Part shown: positions 8,742 through 30,832 of the stretch, one piece after another | How the letters are laid out: every line of letters begins with the position of its first letter | How positions within the stretch are numbered: the stretch's first letter is position 1 | DNA from: Olivibacter sitiensis DSM 17696 | GTDB taxonomy: Bacteria; Bacteroidota; Bacteroidia; Sphingobacteriales; Sphingobacteriaceae | Length of the DNA stretch: 64,000 bases | Assembly (NCBI RefSeq): GCF_000427965.1 | Contig: NZ_ATZA01000032.1 | Location: 1-64,000 of the forward strand | Direction: 5' to 3' | Position numbers and translations under genes: made by a program | The notes under the pieces: generated by a model | Databases searched by the model: none | Told to the model about the DNA's origin: nothing | Seen by the model: only the letters and a program-made list of their open reading frames with translations

Positions 8742-9175
8742 CTTTTATTGATAGCCATCGCTATCAATCTGTCTATTAAAGTAGGCAAGTCCTTTGCGTC
8801 GATGTCCTTTAGCTCATTGGTTTTCCCGATGATTTGCTTTTGTAAGTTGTCGGTGCGAATGACAGTTTGACCAAATCTGATCGTATCTGAATCAAGCCCA
8901 AATTCGTTTATCCGACTTTCATCCATATCTATGACAACCCCCTTTTCGTTACTCCCCTTTCCGCTATAGGCTATTTCTATTCCTAGTTCGACAAAAATAG
9001 ATCTTATAGCTTCCCTAGTGGTGGTTTGATCCATATTGATAGGCTGTATCTCTTTGTCGAGATCATCCACGATGAGGATTTGTTCATTTCCCCTGACTAT
9101 TTTGACTACAGAGACAACAAGTCCATATAGTATGTGGATTGCCTCCTGATCATTTTCATCTAGTAGTTCCACCAC
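8738..9175 (-). pseudogene. Gmd-like C-terminal fragment or small unknown protein after rfbA
   Basis: A 145-residue frame that opens with GTG, 6 nt after the rfbA stop. The stretch REAIRSIFVELGIEIAYSG followed by NEKGVV resembles the substrate-side region of GDP-mannose 4,6-dehydratase (TTTVREFVR.AF.E.GIE...GEG..EKG), and KDLPTLIDRLI resembles its last helix. The N-terminal Rossmann half, the catalytic YxxxK and the usual FRPxEVD segment are missing. So it is either a decayed remnant of a gmd gene that once followed rfbA, or a diverged small protein derived from it. An upstream ATG at 9180 leads to a stop after six codons, which also suggests decay. It still forms an open frame of 145 codons, so I cannot exclude translation. 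Confidence 0.45.
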
Positions 9176-21617: not shown

Positions 21618-22643
21618 ATGAAAAGAACACATAATTTATTCACGGCCCTGCTCATGCAGGTGATTTGCGTTGCTGGTCTCCATGCACAGCAACTGGAAAA
21701 GCTGCACGAAGGAAACCAGGTCAGCATCAGGGGTATGGCGCTGCCAAATGATTCGGTCGCCTGGGTGAGCGGAAGCAAAGGCAGCGTAGCCTTGAGCGTC
21801 GACAGTGGCAAGACATGGCAATGGCAGACGATTGAGGGGGACGAAAAATTGGATTTCAGGTCTATAGCTGCCTTCTCTGACAGCGTGGCCGTGGTAGTGA
21901 GTGCGGGAAGTCCGGCGGTGATACTCCGCACTGTTGACAGGGGAGCGAGCTGGACAAAGGTGTACGAAGACGATCGTGATTCCATTTTCTTTGACGGCAT
22001 ATCTTTCTGGGATGATAGCACGGGCTTGGCATTTGGCGATCCCATTGGTGGTTTGATGCAGCTGCTGACCACATCGGATGGCGGCCAAACTTGGAGCAAC
22101 ATCAGTGAAGAGGCGGCCGTGAAACTGCTGAAAGGAGAGGCTGGATTTGCCGCTAGCGGCACGGGTATCAGAACACTGGGAGATGGTTCGGTATGGATCG
22201 GTACGGGTGGGAGCAAGGCGCGGCTTTGGTACAGCTATAATTACGGACGATCTTGGACACCTTATAATGTACCTATTGAGCAGGGGGGCAATAGTCAGGG
22301 GATTTTTTCCATAGCCGTTACTACCGATAAAAAAGTCATTGCGGTAGGCGGAGATTATGTCAACGACAGAAACAATAACAATGTAATTCAGCTTTCTGCC
22401 AATGGTTCTGTTTGGAAAGCCCCACGAAGCAGGCTTTCTGGCTACAAATCTGGCGTGGAAGTGATTGGCGAGACGCAACAAGTAATTGCTACTGGCACTT
22501 CAGGTACAGATTTTTCGACAGATGATGGCGAGACCTGGAAAAATATTTCCGATATCAGCCTTAATGTGGTGCGTTCTTCTCCCAGTGGAAATTTGGTGTT
22601 GCTCGCTGGAGGAGATGGAAAGGTATATCGTTTAATCTTTTAA
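21618..22643 (+). CDS. Exported YCF48/BNR-repeat beta-propeller protein
   Basis: A 341-residue protein with a signal peptide (MKRTHNLFTALLMQVICVAGLHAQ). It has repeated units of the type AWVSGSKGSVALSVDSGKTW, VILRTVDRGASWTKV, LTTSDGGQTWSN and STDDGETWKNIS. These (S/T)xDxGxTW Asp-box signatures mark YCF48/sortilin-like beta-propellers, with about six blades visible. Members in Bacteroidota are exported, and YCF48 in phototrophs helps assemble photosystem II, which is irrelevant here. The start is taken at 21618, because the five upstream codons belong to the repeat patch. It follows folP by 67 nt and precedes the five-gene cluster. Confidence 0.82.
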   Translation: MKRTHNLFTALLMQVICVAGLHAQQLEKLHEGNQVSIRGMALPNDSVAWVSGSKGSVALSVDSGKTWQWQTIEGDEKLDFRSIAAFSDSVAVVVSAGSPAVILRTVDRGASWTKVYEDDRDSIFFDGISFWDDSTGLAFGDPIGGLMQLLTTSDGGQTWSNISEEAAVKLLKGEAGFAASGTGIRTLGDGSVWIGTGGSKARLWYSYNYGRSWTPYNVPIEQGGNSQGIFSIAVTTDKKVIAVGGDYVNDRNNNNVIQLSANGSVWKAPRSRLSGYKSGVEVIGETQQVIATGTSGTDFSTDDGETWKNISDISLNVVRSSPSGNLVLLAGGDGKVYRLIF

Positions 22644-22730
22644 TTCCCTGTTTTCAGCTATAGGGGCTATTTCATATTTTTTTCAATTTTGCAAGGTTAC
22701 ATAGGGGAAGTGTCTATAAAATCGTTGCAT

Positions 22731-24218
22731 GTGAGGAAATTTGCGTTCATTCTTTTGCTTTGTTGTTGCCGGTACGGCGCCGTATTTTCTCAATACAGTG
22801 TGCGTACCGTGCCCAATCCCAAGCAATATGGTCAATCGCAATATGTAAGCAATCCCGATAGGGTATTATCCAGTTGGGCTGTCGATTCGCTCAACCGCTT
22901 GGCCCGGGAAGTGGAGGAAAAGAGCGGGGTGGAAATCGCGGTGGTTGCCGTAGACGATTACGTGGGTTCGGACGACTTCGAGTTTGCCTTGGAGCTGTAT
23001 AACTATTGGGGCATTGGCCGTATGGAAAACAATGCGGGCTTGCTGCTTTTCATTGCCAGGGATAAGCGGGCCTATCGCTTCATTACGGGCTATGGGCTGG
23101 AATCCGTTTTGCCAGATGCGTTGCTGAAACAACTGGGCGAGCAGGGCTTGGTACCCCATTTTCGGAAAGGCAAATATGATGAAGGCACAGTAGCGGTCAT
23201 GAAGGCCGTTCAACACGCCTTGACCAGCGAGAGCGGACGGGCAGAACTGCATGGGGATTTGTCCAGAAAGGAAAGCCTATGGCACCGATATGGTGACCCG
23301 CTATTGAACAGCGCTTTTTGGTTGCTTTTGTACATCATGGCGTGGAGACGGGCCGACAGTGCCATAGACAAAGCGATGTACCGCAAGAAGAAGAGAAAGT
23401 CGAGAAAGCGAGGGATTGACTATTATCCGCTCATGGTAGCTGGCATGCTCTTGTTGGTTATGCTTTTCCTTTCTATGTTTGTCATGCTGCTGTTTTCCCA
23501 GCATCCATTGACGCTCTTTCGCCTAGATTATTTTCCATATTACATCATCGTATTGGGTACCATAGCCTTGAATGTCAAGTATGGGGACGGTGTGCGGGTC
23601 ATCGAACAGCTGTATAAGGATGAGGAAAATAAAAAACGGGAATTATCGGCATTTAATAAAAGTATGCTATTCTCCATTGTGTTATCGCCATTGGTACTCA
23701 TAAAGGTACTGAAGCAATGGAAGTATTGGAAAAAGCAAAGGGTCAGATTTATTGCTCCCGATGCGCAGGGAACGTGGAAACGCTTGAACAGGGACGAGCT
23801 AACCAAACTCTCGCTGTATCTGGACAAAGGGCAACAGGAGGAGGAACGACTGGGATCCAAGAGTTACGAACTATGGCGAGATACCGATTCGGAAAACACA
23901 AAAGCGGTGGCTTGGACAGGAAGCAAAGCCCACCTGTTCAGCACTTGTCCTGCATGCCATTACGAAACCTTAAGTGCGCCGCATGTCAAAACCCTGAAAG
24001 CAGCTACTTTCAAAAACACGGGAAAGGGGCAGGAGTTGCAAAAGTGCGCATTCTGCAAGCATGAAGTGCTATTGGGAATGGTTGTTTTGCCCGTGAAAGT
24101 ACGGGATTCCGGTTCCGCATCTGGAGGCGGTTATTCTGGAAGTAGCAGTAGCGGTTCAAGCGGTGGCAGTTGGGGCGGTGGCAGCAGCGGTGGTGGCGGT
24201 GCGGGGGGAAACTGGTAA
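22731..24218 (+). CDS. TPM-domain (YgcG-like) membrane protein with zinc-ribbon and Gly/Ser tail
   Basis: A 495-residue protein. I place the start at the GTG at 22731, which begins a signal peptide (VRKFAFILLLCCCRYGAVFSQ). The longer TTG start at 22689 falls within a promoter-like CAATTTTG. The TPM domain spans about 35-165, with LNRLAREVEEKSGVEIAVV, NNAGLLLFIARDKRAYRFITGYGLE and PDALLKQLGEQGLVPHFRKG. Hydrophobic segments lie near 190, 230-256 and 265-282. Cys pairs CPAC (about 405) and CAFC (about 438) form a likely zinc ribbon. The C-terminus is almost purely Gly and Ser, ending GAGGNW. TPM domains are reported as acid phosphatase-like or as assembly factors. First gene of a five-gene cluster. 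Confidence 0.85.
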   Translation: MRKFAFILLLCCCRYGAVFSQYSVRTVPNPKQYGQSQYVSNPDRVLSSWAVDSLNRLAREVEEKSGVEIAVVAVDDYVGSDDFEFALELYNYWGIGRMENNAGLLLFIARDKRAYRFITGYGLESVLPDALLKQLGEQGLVPHFRKGKYDEGTVAVMKAVQHALTSESGRAELHGDLSRKESLWHRYGDPLLNSAFWLLLYIMAWRRADSAIDKAMYRKKKRKSRKRGIDYYPLMVAGMLLLVMLFLSMFVMLLFSQHPLTLFRLDYFPYYIIVLGTIALNVKYGDGVRVIEQLYKDEENKKRELSAFNKSMLFSIVLSPLVLIKVLKQWKYWKKQRVRFIAPDAQGTWKRLNRDELTKLSLYLDKGQQEEERLGSKSYELWRDTDSENTKAVAWTGSKAHLFSTCPACHYETLSAPHVKTLKAATFKNTGKGQELQKCAFCKHEVLLGMVVLPVKVRDSGSASGGGYSGSSSSGSSGGSWGGGSSGGGGAGGNW

Positions 24219-24225
24219 TAGCACT

Positions 24226-26409
24226 ATGGAAAGACGTCCTATTCAACTGGAATTGAAATCGCTGAAAGCGAGATTATGGGCCTTTTATTGGGCACTTACC
24301 CTTTTTATGGCCTTGCCTTGGCTGCTGATCTGCTGGTTGTTGTCATGGCCTTGGTCTATCTGTTTGTGGGCATGGGGCATTTTTGCGCTGAGGGCATTCG
24401 TAAGGCATAGATGGGCCCTGTACAGGTTGCGGAAAGATTTTCGGTATGGCGTTTCCATGCGGCAACGGGCACGCATAGTGCGCGCAGATCTCGTACAGCA
24501 ACGACGGTGGTGGGGCAGGCGAGTGAAACAGGTAGCGGTCTTTTTGGAGAAAACTTTGGACGGTTCCAAGGACGAGAGAGACCACTTTGTCTTATGGGAA
24601 AACAGGGATAAGCCTTTTCCAAAGCAGGATAAGTCGCTGCGATACCGTTACCGCGAGCTGGTCAGTACCGTTTTGGAGATAGACTACCTGCCGCATAGCG
24701 GTATCATCATATCGTATCGCATCTTGGATGAAAAAGACAATGAACTGGAGTACATGGGAGACCTGAAGCTATATGTGAGGCAAAGGGACATTACGCTTTT
24801 TAAGGCAGAGGCAAGGAGCATGATCTTACCGACGGAAAAGATAGACTTTATTACCTTTGAAAGAAAGCGCAAGGGTGCCCATTATACATTGACCTTAAGC
24901 TCGGAAAGTGTGCCGGATATCTTGCCCGTTCCGTCCCTGATACCTCGATTTCATGAGCTGGAGCAATGGATGAAAGACTTGTCCGCCTTTGACTGGCATG
25001 CCTATGAACTGGCCAAGGAGGATGAAGACATCCGTGAGCCCTTTATCCTTTGGGAGCGCGAGTTTAAGGTGGGAATACCGATTGGGTCGCCTTTTTCGGG
25101 TATGCGCGTCACGCATTCGGGTGGACGGTTTGTGGTGACCTGTTCCAATGGATATAGCGAGTCCATTGATGAAAGCGCCATAGAGATGGTTACCATAAAG
25201 AGTTATTCGACAGTGAAACCCAATACGGACTTCGATATTAATCTGGCTGGATTTGCTCGCTCCAGCGTAAACGTAAAATCGCATGCCGAAGGTTTTTCCG
25301 ATGTACTGAACTGGCTCTGTGCATTGCCCCGTTTTGATAGGATAGGATTTGAGCGCCTGACCCGTGAGGTAGGGGAGCAGCCAGCGATTGTCTGGAAAAA
25401 AGAACCCACAGCAGAGGCTGCCATAATCCCCCAGACCGAAGAGAACGGCATGGACATGGGGCAACTGGAAAAGGGGATCTTACTGGAGGATAGCAATCTG
25501 TTTATCGCCTGGTCAAACTTTTCTTACCTGGAAAAGATAAAACAAGTGAGGCGTGAGCAGGTAAACCTACCCAATACCAACTACAGGCAGTACAGGTACA
25601 CCATCAAAGCTCCAGTGGTGTTGAATGGCATTCAATTAAAGGAACTGACTTTTCTCTCCCCCGCTTGGCAGATAGGCAAAGGGTTTAATAGGGCCTGGCC
25701 CATGGTCAATGCCAGTGCGAACATTTCTTTGGGCAATGGCGGCGAGCGGGATTATCGGCTATTGAAACAGCACTTGACAGCGGGCCTTGGTGCTCCGAAG
25801 ACAAATGAAAGCCAAGACTTTTTGGAATCCCAATGGAGTGGCAGGACAAGCTTGTCCATACGTGCCTGGAAACCTAATAATATCGCTCAATTTTATGACT
25901 ATTGTGGCCTTTACCTGGACTATGATCCGGATGTTTCTGCTTTTTTCAGGGATAGCTATGTGGATTCGTTCATTCTGGACGACGCCATCAGCTATCAGGT
26001 TTTCTCGGGCTCATTGCAAGTGAAAGCCGATTACCTGACCAATATCGCCACTAGGCTGATGCCGGAAGCTTTGTCCGCCCTGTTGTCGGATGATGGACAG
26101 TTCCTCGTCTGGTTGGACAGTGAGCATAGCTTAATAGGTATCGGCAATCGTCACTTTGCGCATATCATGCCCCTGTCGCGCATTGGCGAGTGGGTTTTTG
26201 TGGGATATTATTGGCGGGATGCACCAAGAGACCTGAGCCTGTATTTTCAAAAAGGAAGTGACACACAGCCGACGATCTCTACCGGACAGGACAATTTTAT
26301 TGGAGATTTTAAAATGGCGGATGAAGGGAGATGGGCCAGTTTGTTGGAAGAAATAGAGAACTTTGTTTCTTTTCCCTGCCGATTTATAGAAGATAGGCAG
26401 TATTATTAA
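24226..26409 (+). CDS. Large membrane-anchored protein of unknown function
   Basis: A 727-residue protein, ATG at 24226, 7 nt after the TPM gene stop. The first 60 residues hold two hydrophobic segments rich in Trp (LTLFMALPWLLICWLLSWPW, then CLWAWGIFALRAF). The rest (about 90-727) is soluble. I see two consecutive units of similar layout. Each has strands, then an amphipathic helix closing with a Trp and the motif FD: ELEQWMKDLSAFD near 260 and SDVLNWLCALPRFD near 365. This suggests tandem PH-like domains. The C-terminal 230 residues contain further strand-rich units. I do not recognise the family. The context, between a TPM protein and a kinase-regulator pair, suggests an envelope role. Confidence 0.8.
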   Translation: MERRPIQLELKSLKARLWAFYWALTLFMALPWLLICWLLSWPWSICLWAWGIFALRAFVRHRWALYRLRKDFRYGVSMRQRARIVRADLVQQRRWWGRRVKQVAVFLEKTLDGSKDERDHFVLWENRDKPFPKQDKSLRYRYRELVSTVLEIDYLPHSGIIISYRILDEKDNELEYMGDLKLYVRQRDITLFKAEARSMILPTEKIDFITFERKRKGAHYTLTLSSESVPDILPVPSLIPRFHELEQWMKDLSAFDWHAYELAKEDEDIREPFILWEREFKVGIPIGSPFSGMRVTHSGGRFVVTCSNGYSESIDESAIEMVTIKSYSTVKPNTDFDINLAGFARSSVNVKSHAEGFSDVLNWLCALPRFDRIGFERLTREVGEQPAIVWKKEPTAEAAIIPQTEENGMDMGQLEKGILLEDSNLFIAWSNFSYLEKIKQVRREQVNLPNTNYRQYRYTIKAPVVLNGIQLKELTFLSPAWQIGKGFNRAWPMVNASANISLGNGGERDYRLLKQHLTAGLGAPKTNESQDFLESQWSGRTSLSIRAWKPNNIAQFYDYCGLYLDYDPDVSAFFRDSYVDSFILDDAISYQVFSGSLQVKADYLTNIATRLMPEALSALLSDDGQFLVWLDSEHSLIGIGNRHFAHIMPLSRIGEWVFVGYYWRDAPRDLSLYFQKGSDTQPTISTGQDNFIGDFKMADEGRWASLLEEIENFVSFPCRFIEDRQYY

Positions 26410-26445
26410 AACAGGTTTGCAACAACAAATAGAAATTAAGCTAAA

Positions 26446-27150
26446 ATGAAAATAGGGGGTCAAAGGAAACTTTTCAGTGTTTTGATGCTCATCAGTGGGT
26501 GTCTATTTATCAAAGGACCCGCCATGGCGCAAGATTCCTTGGAAGTTTGGAAAGTGGATTTTAAATATATCGAAAAGGACAGCGTTTCGGGTTCCGATTT
26601 CGCTTATGCTGTATTTGCGGATTATGGACTAGTAAGCTTATACTACCGCGACGGAGCCTTTAAATGGGTATATACGGATTCGCTCTATGAGCTAGGCAAT
26701 GCAAAGGGAAAAATACATTACATGGTTAATGGTACGCGTGCAGAAGAGCTTTTATGGCCTAGCGGCGTGATGCCGGACAACTGGATGATGCAGGATAGCT
26801 TTTTCTATCTGTGGCCCAAGGACTATAAAGGCCAGTGGCTGAACAAATCGGGCGAGGTAGCCGGACTGACCATTTATCCCAAGATTTTCTCTTCCAGCCA
26901 TTTGGTGGATGAGCAGGTTTTGGTTTATTTTACGGATGATTTGCCGGAAGCGGCATGGAAACCCTATTCTTTTTTACATCACGAAGGACACGGTATACTG
27001 GGTATATTTCTTACCGATGGGCAAGGGGAAATACGGAAGGGTATTGAGGCCACTGGGGTTTCCAAGGTAAAAGTTGGTGCCGATTTTTTTCTATTGCCAG
27101 AGTCGCTCCATATAGTGGAAATAATAAAGCCGCCCAAATTGAATGAATAA
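26446..27150 (+). CDS. Secreted protein of unknown function
   Basis: A 234-residue protein with a signal peptide (ending GPAMAQ) and no other hydrophobic helix. The mature part is strand-rich and unusually high in Trp and Tyr, for example FKWVYTDSLYEL, FYLWPKDYKGQW. It ends HIVEIIKPPKLNE. No family is recognised. Its stop codon overlaps the kinase start (TAATG, 1-nt overlap), which implies translational coupling with the sensor. A soluble periplasmic partner or ligand-binding protein for that sensor is an inference from position only. Confidence 0.75.
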   Translation: MKIGGQRKLFSVLMLISGCLFIKGPAMAQDSLEVWKVDFKYIEKDSVSGSDFAYAVFADYGLVSLYYRDGAFKWVYTDSLYELGNAKGKIHYMVNGTRAEELLWPSGVMPDNWMMQDSFFYLWPKDYKGQWLNKSGEVAGLTIYPKIFSSSHLVDEQVLVYFTDDLPEAAWKPYSFLHHEGHGILGIFLTDGQGEIRKGIEATGVSKVKVGADFFLLPESLHIVEIIKPPKLNE

Positions 27151-29393
27151 TGATAGAAAGATATAGGAATTTATTGTTAGTATGCGTATTATACAGCCTG
27201 TTTGTGCTGTTGCCATTCTTGGCGTCGGCACAGGGAAGTTTAGACTCCTTGGCTCATCTATATGCATCAAAGAACATAACAAAGGAAGAGAAATGGTTGT
27301 TGGCTGGAAAGTATAGCACAGCACTGTTCTTCAACCAGCAGGAAGGTGAGGGGATGCAGCTGCTGGCACAAAATATAGCCCTGTGCAGGAAGGCCAAAGA
27401 CGGCCGCTATGCCGCATACCTATATGCTATTCAAGCGATGAACTACAAGATTCTGGATGAGGATGACTTGTCACAAAACGCGCTTGATAGTGCCTTATAC
27501 TACAAGCAATACACGACAGACAACCGAATACGCGGTTATGTGAGTTATTGTGAAGGTTGGCTTAAGTATAGGGATAATAAGCCTGTGGAGGCCGTTAATA
27601 GTTTTGTGGAAGCACTGAAAACGCTGGACCTGGCAAAAACTAACGACTATAAATCGGCCATATACAAAGAACTCTATAGCATATATGCCGAATGGGGCGA
27701 CTATGGCCTACAGAAAAAATATGCGGAGCTTACCTTGGATCTGGCTCAATCCATCAAGGATATTTCCCTCGCTTTTGATGCCAACCGGATGTTGGGAGGG
27801 GTATATGAAAACCTATATCGGGAAAAAGAGGGAGAAGTAGCTCTTCGCGACTCGGCACATTACTACTACCAAAGGGCTATATCCATTTATGAGGCTAACG
27901 AGGGGAGAATGCTCGTGCCATCCAATTTGCCACATGTGGCACTCAATCTCGCCAATTTATTCATGGAATTTTATCCGGAAAGCTCCAAGCCAGAGGCCAT
28001 AAAATATGCCCATATGGCTATAGAATTGGGAAAAAAGACACATCAGTATACTTTTGTGGCTTCCGCATATGGCATCCTCTCCGAATATGAAATGCAAGAT
28101 GGCAATATTGAAGGGACAAAACGCTATTTATTGCAAGCTATGAACGAGATTATGCAGGACTCTATGGCAGATAGGATTATCCTTTCACGTATTTATCAAG
28201 GTTTGGCCAATGTCTATGAACAGGAAGGCGACACTGAACAGTCCCTGCATTACTACAAGCAGTACCAGCAAATATACAAAGACATATATGATGCTGATAA
28301 GATGGAGATTGGCCGGAGGTTGGAAGCCCAGTTTGAGAAAGAGAAGCAAATGCAGCAGCTAGCTTACCTGAAATTGGAGGACGAGAAAAAAGAGCAACAA
28401 TTGGCTTTGATGCGTTCGGTAGCAAAGCAGAGCGAACAGCAATTGGCAAATATGGCCTTGAAAGAAGAAAACCAACGACAAGAGATTGTTATGTTCAAGC
28501 TTCAGTCCGAAAAAAATGAGCAGGCACTTTCGCTCGCACGACTGCGATCGGAACAACACGGACAGGAAAAGGCCTTGATGCGGCAAGAGATTGAAAGCAA
28601 TAAAAAGCTCAATCGCGTCTATTTTTTGTTGATGCTGGTGTTTTTGCTCATTCTCGTGTTGGTATATTATGTGTACAAGCAGCGATCGACCAGCCTTAAA
28701 CAGCAGGCCGAAGTACACTTGCTGGCCCTGCAAAAAGTGAAACAGGAGCAGGAGATTTCCAATTTGACGGCTATGCTGGAAGGTCAGGAGAAGGAGCGTG
28801 CGCGCTTGGCAAGGGATCTGCATGACGGGTTGGGAGGGCTTCTATCCGGAACTAAAATAGAGCTTTCGGAACTAGGATTGGCAAAAGAAGTTGCACCTTT
28901 TAAGTCCTTGCTGAATAGGTCGCTGGGGCATATCGACGCTGCGGTGGATGAGCTGAGAAGAGTAGCCCATAATCTCATGCCAGAATTGGTGCTGAAATAT
29001 GGCTTGAAGGAGGCTATCAAGGAGTTTTGCTCTAGGGTGAGCAAGAAAGTGAGGGTAGAAGCTCAAATCATCAATTATAAACAGCAGCTGAATGCGCATG
29101 ATGAGGTCATGGTGTACCGAATTATTCAGGAACTGGTGAATAATGGATTGAAACATGGCCGTGCAACCCATATTTTGGTACAGTACCAAGTGAGTGGCGA
29201 CCGCGCTTTCCTTACGGTGGAGGACGATGGGATTGGATTTGACCAGAATGGGCAGCAGCAAAAAGGAATGGGAGCCGGATTGCTCAATATACATTCAAGA
29301 TTACAGTATTTGCAAGGCGAGATGCATGTCGATTCACGCTTAGGTCAAGGTACAACGATAGAAATTGAATTTCCAATAAGTAAGAATATATGA
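27150..29393 (+). CDS. TPR-containing sensor histidine kinase (HisKA_3, NarL-pathway type)
   Basis: A 747-residue kinase. Signal peptide or first membrane segment at about 8-25. A periplasmic TPR array covers about 30-400. A long coiled coil of repeated QQLAxMxLKEE-like heptads covers about 395-480. One TM segment (VYFLLMLVFLLILVLVYYVYK) lies near 490-510. The HisKA_3 domain has phospho-acceptor His558 in ARDLHDGLGG. The HATPase domain has IIQELVNNGLKHG (N box), VEDDGIGF (G1) and GMGAGLLNIHSRLQYLQG (G2). It overlaps the regulator by 4 nt. Such TPR kinases in Bacteroidota sense unknown envelope signals. Confidence 0.92.
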   Translation: MIERYRNLLLVCVLYSLFVLLPFLASAQGSLDSLAHLYASKNITKEEKWLLAGKYSTALFFNQQEGEGMQLLAQNIALCRKAKDGRYAAYLYAIQAMNYKILDEDDLSQNALDSALYYKQYTTDNRIRGYVSYCEGWLKYRDNKPVEAVNSFVEALKTLDLAKTNDYKSAIYKELYSIYAEWGDYGLQKKYAELTLDLAQSIKDISLAFDANRMLGGVYENLYREKEGEVALRDSAHYYYQRAISIYEANEGRMLVPSNLPHVALNLANLFMEFYPESSKPEAIKYAHMAIELGKKTHQYTFVASAYGILSEYEMQDGNIEGTKRYLLQAMNEIMQDSMADRIILSRIYQGLANVYEQEGDTEQSLHYYKQYQQIYKDIYDADKMEIGRRLEAQFEKEKQMQQLAYLKLEDEKKEQQLALMRSVAKQSEQQLANMALKEENQRQEIVMFKLQSEKNEQALSLARLRSEQHGQEKALMRQEIESNKKLNRVYFLLMLVFLLILVLVYYVYKQRSTSLKQQAEVHLLALQKVKQEQEISNLTAMLEGQEKERARLARDLHDGLGGLLSGTKIELSELGLAKEVAPFKSLLNRSLGHIDAAVDELRRVAHNLMPELVLKYGLKEAIKEFCSRVSKKVRVEAQIINYKQQLNAHDEVMVYRIIQELVNNGLKHGRATHILVQYQVSGDRAFLTVEDDGIGFDQNGQQQKGMGAGLLNIHSRLQYLQGEMHVDSRLGQGTTIEIEFPISKNI

Positions 29394-30016
29394 TTAATAT
29401 TGCCATAGCTGACGACCATCCTATCGTACTGGATGGATTGAAGAATCTGTTGGATAAGCAGGAAGGGTTTTACGTACAGGACGTATTTTCGAATGGTGAA
29501 ACGCTGCTTGATAGCTTGAAGGGAAATCGTCCTGACGTCTTATTGCTGGACATCAATCTGCCAGACATGAGCGGTTTGGACCTAGCGCCTAAAATCAAGA
29601 CGCGGTATACGGATATGAAGGTTATCATCCTCAGCGTTCATAATGAATTTGCGGTTATAAACAGCATGCTCATCAAGGGGGCGGACGGCTACATTCAAAA
29701 AAATGTGGTTAGTACGGAGATTGTAGATGGCATTCGCACGGTGATGGCAGGCAAGAGGTTTTTGTGCTCGCAGACGAAGCAGATCGTAACAAAAAAAGAG
29801 AACGAAGGCTTGCAAGTGGTGCCCAAGATCACGCGTAGGGAGAGGGAGATATTGCAATGCGTAGCCGAAGGACTCACGACCGTTCAAATAGGAGATAAGC
29901 TTTTCATCAGCCCACATACCGTGGAGAGTCATAGAAAGAACCTCATGGAGAAATTCGATGTAAAGAACCTTTCATCGGTCATTAAGTTGGCTACCGAGTA
30001 TGGGCTGTTGCATTAG
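29390..30016 (+). CDS. NarL/FixJ-family response regulator
   Basis: A 208-residue regulator. The receiver domain (1-120) has the acidic pair at residues 8-9 (ADDH), phospho-acceptor Asp54 in LLLDINLPDMSG, the Ser/Thr switch in ILSVHNE, and Lys in GADGYIQKN. The LuxR-type DNA-binding domain (about 143-206) reads ITRREREILQCVAEGLTTVQIG then ISPHTVESHRKNLMEKF. It is translated in coupling with the kinase (4-nt overlap) and is the last gene of the cluster, followed by a 24-bp hairpin. Its targets are unknown, and the cluster itself is a reasonable guess. Confidence 0.94.
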   Translation: MINIAIADDHPIVLDGLKNLLDKQEGFYVQDVFSNGETLLDSLKGNRPDVLLLDINLPDMSGLDLAPKIKTRYTDMKVIILSVHNEFAVINSMLIKGADGYIQKNVVSTEIVDGIRTVMAGKRFLCSQTKQIVTKKENEGLQVVPKITRREREILQCVAEGLTTVQIGDKLFISPHTVESHRKNLMEKFDVKNLSSVIKLATEYGLLH

Positions 30017-30095
30017 AGTGAGATTATGCGCTTCTACTTGCGTAAGCGCACCTTGGCTGTTATGGCGTAGATATAAATTACTGCCAAAGGGGAGA

Positions 30096-30147
30096 ATTAA
30101 AGCCAAAAAGCCATTTCTAATGCTAGAAATGGCTTTTTGGCTTTAAT
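30096..30147. terminator. Bidirectional terminator with a perfect 24-bp stem
   Basis: Arms 30096-30119 and 30124-30147 are perfect reverse complements around a 4-nt loop (ATGC). Both sides carry A- or T-rich ends. It separates the regulator gene (end 30016) from the convergent ABC ATPase gene (end 30167). Confidence 0.85.
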
Positions 30148-30166
30148 GATTTGTGGCTTGGAGAAA

Positions 30167-30832
30167 CTACTTAACCACCTGTCCATCCAGAAGTTCAATA
30201 ATCCTAGAGCCATATTCGGCATTTTTTTCCGAGTGTGTTACCTGAATAATGGTGACGCCGTCTTCGTCGTTCAATTGCTTGAACAATTGCATAATCTCAT
30301 CCCCTTGCTTGGAGTTGAGGTTCCCCGTAGGCTCATCGGCCAAAAGCAACTTGGGTTTGGTAGCCAATGCCCTGGCAATACCTACGAGTTGCTGCTGTCC
30401 ACCGGAAAGCTGGGTAGGGAAAAGGTCTTTTTTGCCCACGATGCCAAACCTGTCCAGGAGATCGGCCACAATGGCTTTACGTTCGCTTCCTTTTAAGTTT
30501 TTGTAGATCAAGGGGGTTTCGATGTTTTCATAAACTGTCAGCTCGTCTATGAGGTGGTATGCTTGGAATACAAAACCTACATGTTCCTTATATATAGTTG
30601 ATCGTTGCTTTTCTTTCAGTCGCAGTACATCTTCTCCAAGGAAGTGGTAGCTGCCTTCATCCGGCTCGTCCAAGAGGCCCAAAATATGCAGAAGGGTAGA
30701 TTTGCCAGAGCCCGAAGGCCCCATGATGGAGACAAATTCACCTTCATTGATGGTGAGGTTAATGTCTTTCAATACAAAATTGCGAATGCCCCCCGTATTG
30801 TACCATTTAAAGATATGCTCTAGTTCTATCAT
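30167..30832 (-). CDS. ABC transporter ATP-binding protein (MacB/LolD type), orphan
   Basis: A 221-residue ATPase subunit. I use the ATG at 30832 (MIELEHIFKWYNTGG), since the frame further upstream has no family match. Walker A GPSGSGKST (38-46), Q-loop VFQAYHLIDELT, signature LSGGQ, Walker B LLLADEPTGNL and H-loop VTHSEKNAEYGSRII are all present. The residues after the signature read QQLVGIARAL, where the usual form is QQRVAIARAL. No permease gene is adjacent, so its partner must be elsewhere. The type moves lipoproteins, peptides or drugs by MacB/FtsX-like permeases. An inverted repeat at 30887-30909 could control it. Confidence 0.88.
   Translation of the reverse strand: MIELEHIFKWYNTGGIRNFVLKDINLTINEGEFVSIMGPSGSGKSTLLHILGLLDEPDEGSYHFLGEDVLRLKEKQRSTIYKEHVGFVFQAYHLIDELTVYENIETPLIYKNLKGSERKAIVADLLDRFGIVGKKDLFPTQLSGGQQQLVGIARALATKPKLLLADEPTGNLNSKQGDEIMQLFKQLNDEDGVTIIQVTHSEKNAEYGSRIIELLDGQVVK

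Follow-up and report, generated by a model that had tools for sequence, protein, structure and literature searches.

Do five closely packed genes in Olivibacter sitiensis DSM 17696 form one envelope system, as a first-pass annotation of the sequence had claimed, or is only part of the block a unit? The genes are found in a window of 64,000 nucleotides (contig NZ_ATZA01000032.1), this being the whole stretch of DNA that was analyzed, and all are on the plus strand. The first, with a GTG start, encodes a 495-aa TPM-domain envelope protein (22731..24218). It is followed by the genes for a 727-aa near-orphan with N-terminal membrane helices and a large soluble part (24226..26409), a secreted 234-aa protein which profile and fold-model evidence identifies as a stand-alone GLPGLI-domain protein (26446..27150), a 747-aa TPR sensor histidine kinase (27150..29393) and a 208-aa NarL-type response regulator (29390..30016). 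The spacing from first to last gene is 7, 36, -1 and -4 nt, and the annotated packing, i.e. five rightward genes with two short gaps and two overlaps, is thus all seen in the open reading frames. Also present is the hairpin said to close the block, a perfect 24-bp inverted repeat with a 4-nt loop (30096-30119/30124-30147) that starts 79 nt 3' of the regulator gene, ahead of a convergent gene. Given this position, it is probably a bidirectional terminator, stopping transcription from both sides. No convincing promoter was found at the gene gaps, neither by searching for the Bacteroidota-type -7 motif TANNTTTG nor by a sigma-70-type scan.

The last two genes encode a two-component system, as judged from HisKA_3 with its His, HATPase_c and an adjoining receiver-LuxR HTH regulator. 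After its signal peptide, the kinase has periplasmic TPRs and a coiled-coil-like stretch, then a single membrane span at about residues 490-515 and finally the HisKA_3 and HATPase_c domains, while the regulator combines a receiver (Response_reg, E 1.2e-26) with a LuxR-type HTH (GerE, E 2.5e-19). Translations of the two genes show the phospho-acceptor His in ARDLHDGLGG and the Asp in LLLDINLPD, respectively. The annotation of the pair as a TPR histidine kinase and a NarL-type regulator is thereby confirmed at the level of Pfam domains.

By scanning the sensor region of the kinase over 84,980 species, we obtained 38 loci that aligned across nearly the whole region. In 35 of these, the regulator gene immediately follows the kinase gene, and the kinase-regulator pair spans the Sphingobacteriaceae, Weeksellaceae, Flavobacteriaceae and Chitinophagaceae. 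Parapedobacter provides some of the loci in which no regulator follows the kinase (L142, L143 and L133), with L133 having its regulator upstream on the other strand. Neither a TPM gene nor a 727-aa gene was found at any of the 38 kinase loci. In genomes with both a long TPM gene and the kinase, the two are on different contigs or hundreds of kb apart, the distance being 480-930 kb in single-contig genomes.

These distributions bear on the reading in which all five genes are one functional envelope-stress system, assembled recently in the window lineage. Tight packing on one strand in front of a single terminator-like hairpin speaks for it, as does the association of TPM domains with PspA envelope-stress operons elsewhere (PMC11237479), but the lack of both front genes at every kinase locus, the distant long TPM gene, and the position of the block at a synteny break, with no copy found in four genus mates, make it unlikely. 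The original claim of a single five-gene system was not borne out by the same loci. Of the unknown genes held to travel with the kinase-regulator pair, the GLPGLI gene does so, being directly upstream in 18 of the 38 loci, and the TPM and 727-aa genes do not. We consider the chances about even that the block is instead made up of two unrelated parts, namely a three-component envelope sensor at 26446-30016, working in the way proposed below, and a TPM and 727-aa pair at 22731-26409.

The left flank of the block, with dihydropteroate synthase and a BNR protein, is syntenic in four genus mates, where different genes come next. The right flank, with an aminotransferase and Omp85, is located elsewhere in the three genus mates examined. 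In the four genus mates, searches gave no close relative of the TPM gene, the 727-aa gene or the full-length kinase gene, and the block is thus lineage-specific and located at a synteny junction. Its edges, at 22643-22731 and 30016-30167 of the window, fall at the points where synteny with the examined genus mates breaks off. Horizontal transfer was also considered from composition; the TPM (0.50) and 727-aa (0.48) genes have a GC content a little higher than the mean of the ORFs (0.458, sd 0.032), which is not decisive.

As annotated, the first gene encodes a TPM membrane protein with a zinc ribbon and a Gly/Ser tail. The TPM domain comprises residues 39-161 (PF04536, E 2.8e-31, 108.6 bits against a Pfam cut-off of 22.1) and is preceded by a signal peptide and followed by membrane helices, a CxxC zinc ribbon, with the CxxC pairs visible, and the Gly/Ser tail. 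Full-length relatives (about 30-46%) of this family of some 500 aa were identified in 77 other genomes, with 251 family genomes sampled, and their gene neighbors differ among genomes. The TPM protein is a member of a widespread family and is outside the sensor module. Elsewhere, TPM domains have also been tied to membrane-complex assembly (PMC12419801).

The 727-aa protein had no match in Pfam, NCBIfam, PHROGs, PADLOC or PDB sequences. Searches of sampled whole genomes (251 from the family and 395 each from the class and the phylum) yielded partial relatives in two genomes, of 454 aa (G052) and 169 aa (G199), as well as one marginal match (E 0.004), and nothing further was found in the class and phylum genome samples, genome contigs, plasmids or phages. 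By these searches, the protein is a near-orphan. The tandem PH-like units proposed for it were not recovered, as segment profile comparison gave no convincing internal similarity, the best non-trivial pair reaching a probability of 7% over 32 columns. A single-sequence AlphaFold model (pLDDT 35) was unusable except for the N-terminal helices, which are consistent with two membrane spans. The database and genome searches gave no support for a role in defence.

The secreted 234-aa protein was originally listed as being of unknown kind. On its own, it matched nothing in Pfam or NCBIfam and scored below the cut-offs of TIGR01200 (50 bits) and PF22252. Its two weak relatives, both from other genomes of the Sphingobacteriaceae, lean towards TIGR01200 (E 6e-9 and E 0.03), and the relative in genome G071 reached 36 bits against the curated cut-off of 50 bits. 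A profile built from the weak relatives and the GLPGLI domains upstream of related kinases, with the window protein left out, recovered the 234-aa protein with E 7.5e-15, and hhalign against canonical members of the family from the same genome gave a probability of 96.8%. AlphaFold, run on an 18-sequence alignment that included GLPGLI-WG domains, produced a model with a pLDDT of 65 and a pTM of 0.63. The best fold match of this model was the N-terminal domain of PNGF-II (Z 12.6, 169 residues, 3.3 A), followed lower down by RseB/MucB (Z 8-9) and then by LolA (Z about 7), and on the basis of these matches the fold is predicted to be of the LolA/RseB type.

Taken together, profiles and the fold model make the protein a diverged member of the GLPGLI family. 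Its place in the GLPGLI superfamily is solid, whereas its orthology with the kinase-linked members is not secure, since a profile made solely from the kinase-linked GLPGLI-WG domains scores it (E 1.3e-4) much as it scores canonical GLPGLI proteins. The GLPGLI motif itself is degenerate and no WG repeats are found (no PF14903 match). The closest relative in a genus mate (27%) is unlinked, with no kinase beside the gene.

Upstream of the kinase, a GLPGLI-domain gene on the same strand and at a distance of 26-169 nt was found in the 18 loci referred to above, all in Sphingobacterium and with the kinase near position 9000 (L124, L127, L129, L132, L134, L136-L139, L141, L145, L147, L148, L150, L153-L155 and L159). 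All 19 GLPGLI-profile matches among those listed occupy this spot, one locus (L154) having a tandem pair. In the kinase-linked proteins of Sphingobacterium, the GLPGLI domain is N-terminal, and all six that were scanned have WG repeats (PF14903) at the C-terminus. A GLPGLI gene, a TPR kinase and a regulator are consequently a recurring arrangement, and this recurrence supports a model with a periplasmic co-sensor. That the GLPGLI gene also precedes the related kinase in many Sphingobacterium species suggests that the secreted protein helps the kinase to sense the periplasm, and the earlier idea that it is a ligand or co-sensor gains support from genomic context.

The remaining 20 of the 38 kinases are without a GLPGLI neighbor. 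In the kinase tree, which has long branches and is not firm, the window kinase groups with Chitinophaga and Parapedobacter kinases that have no GLPGLI neighbor and falls outside the GLPGLI-linked kinases of Sphingobacterium; the presence of a GLPGLI neighbor requires at least five changes on the tree. From this placement, the pairing is either ancestral and often lost or arose more than once. A further reading is that the GLPGLI gene is beside the window kinase by coincidence, unrelated to the Sphingobacterium arrangement. Neither the tree nor the GLPGLI profile scores support simple orthology, which is in its favor, but as the 5-Mb genome has about 9 GLPGLI matches, a random neighbor would be a GLPGLI gene an estimated 0.2% of the time, and we regard coincidence as very improbable.

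In five loci of Empedobacter and Algoriella, the slot upstream of the kinase is filled by an unrelated protein of 196-215 aa with an apparent signal peptide (L130:8253-8846, L144:8253-8846, L146:8196-8786, L149:4126-4773 and L160:8258-8851); the one scanned had no Pfam match. Other features of the loci were seen in passing. Sphingobacterium sp. B16 (L125) and Chryseobacterium balustinum (L126), which belong to different families, have closely similar kinases near 8977 and a downstream gene of the same size, which looks like horizontal transfer, and the kinase of Pedobacter sp. BAL39 (L131) is close to these two. In a Sphingobacteriaceae genome, an 840-aa ORF with 14 WG-repeat stretches (L112:3536-6058) stops within the called kinase ORF, suggesting that the link between WG proteins and the kinase is not confined to the GLPGLI fusion. 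No relevant report of WG-repeat proteins with kinases was found in the literature searched.

A mechanism can be proposed for the three-gene part of the block. The 234-aa protein would be exported to the periplasm as a GLPGLI domain of the LolA/RseB fold and there bind some component of the envelope or an envelope protein that has misfolded. Whether the 234-aa protein is bound or free would be read by the kinase through its periplasmic TPR domain, after which the kinase would phosphorylate the NarL-type regulator. As with RseB, a membrane sensor would be informed by a protein of the LolA fold; RseB is a periplasmic regulator with a LolA fold, and LolA-type members bind hydrophobic ligands (PMC6363788). 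That the 234-aa gene overlaps the kinase gene stop to start is consistent with coupled expression. We infer co-transcription of the block genes, and likewise the regulon. The TPM and 727-aa pair, which precedes the sensor in the window lineage alone, may be controlled by the sensor and would not be needed for signaling.

The main rival explanation makes the GLPGLI protein an output, the regulator controlling its own operon and the GLPGLI protein doing work in the envelope. GLPGLI genes are found in the regulons of Riemerella anatipestifer PhoP (PMC9603813) and of a P. gingivalis response regulator (PMC8757827), and the GLPGLI and kinase genes of Sphingobacterium are separated by 26-169 nt rather than overlapping as in the window. 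On the other hand, the spot directly upstream of the kinase recurs, the two genes share a stop-start overlap in the window, and the small Empedobacter and Algoriella protein in the same spot hints at a partner slot, and the output explanation seems less likely than not. We put forward the partner interpretation in its general form with similar caution, as a tentative idea: Bacteroidota TPR kinases may read the periplasm via dedicated exported partners encoded just upstream, these being LolA/RseB-fold GLPGLI domains in two lineages of the kinase and, in Empedobacter and Algoriella, a small unrelated protein, i.e. an RseB-like input with a swappable partner.

Every recognizable part of the recurring GLPGLI-kinase-regulator arrangement belongs to a known family, while the arrangement itself appears undescribed in the literature searched. 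It offers a testable candidate for a periplasmic partner of a TPR kinase, as well as a role for the GLPGLI domain. The pair matters since GLPGLI proteins, although common in Bacteroidota, are little described in the literature searched, and since the ligand of TPR kinases such as FimS is given as unknown in PMC11053733, where a polypeptide is suggested.

Among characterized proteins, Psb32, BA41/BA42 and YdjH share the TPM domain with the first protein of the block (PDB relatives 2kw7, 7tbr and 5anp), which is longer and adds extra membrane helices, the zinc ribbon and the Gly/Ser tail. The 234-aa protein has its profile match and best fold match in common with TIGR01200 and PNGase_F-II_N (PF22252), but has a degenerate GLPGLI motif and no enzyme domain. 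The nearest studied kinase of the same plan found in the literature searched is FimS of Porphyromonas gingivalis, in which the TPR domain is likewise periplasmic. FimS-FimR resembles the window pair in having a periplasmic TPR sensor region and a kinase together with a response regulator, whereas its sequence is only weakly related overall (E 0.012 for the kinase N-terminus against the FimS model) and a GLPGLI partner is not mentioned in the passages of PMC11053733 consulted. RseB/MucB and the 234-aa protein, lastly, are alike in the predicted LolA-type fold, in secretion and in the proposed passing of periplasmic state to a membrane sensor. While RseB/MucB has two domains and acts on an anti-sigma factor, the 234-aa protein has a single domain and a kinase as its neighbor, so that the two would be kin by fold only.
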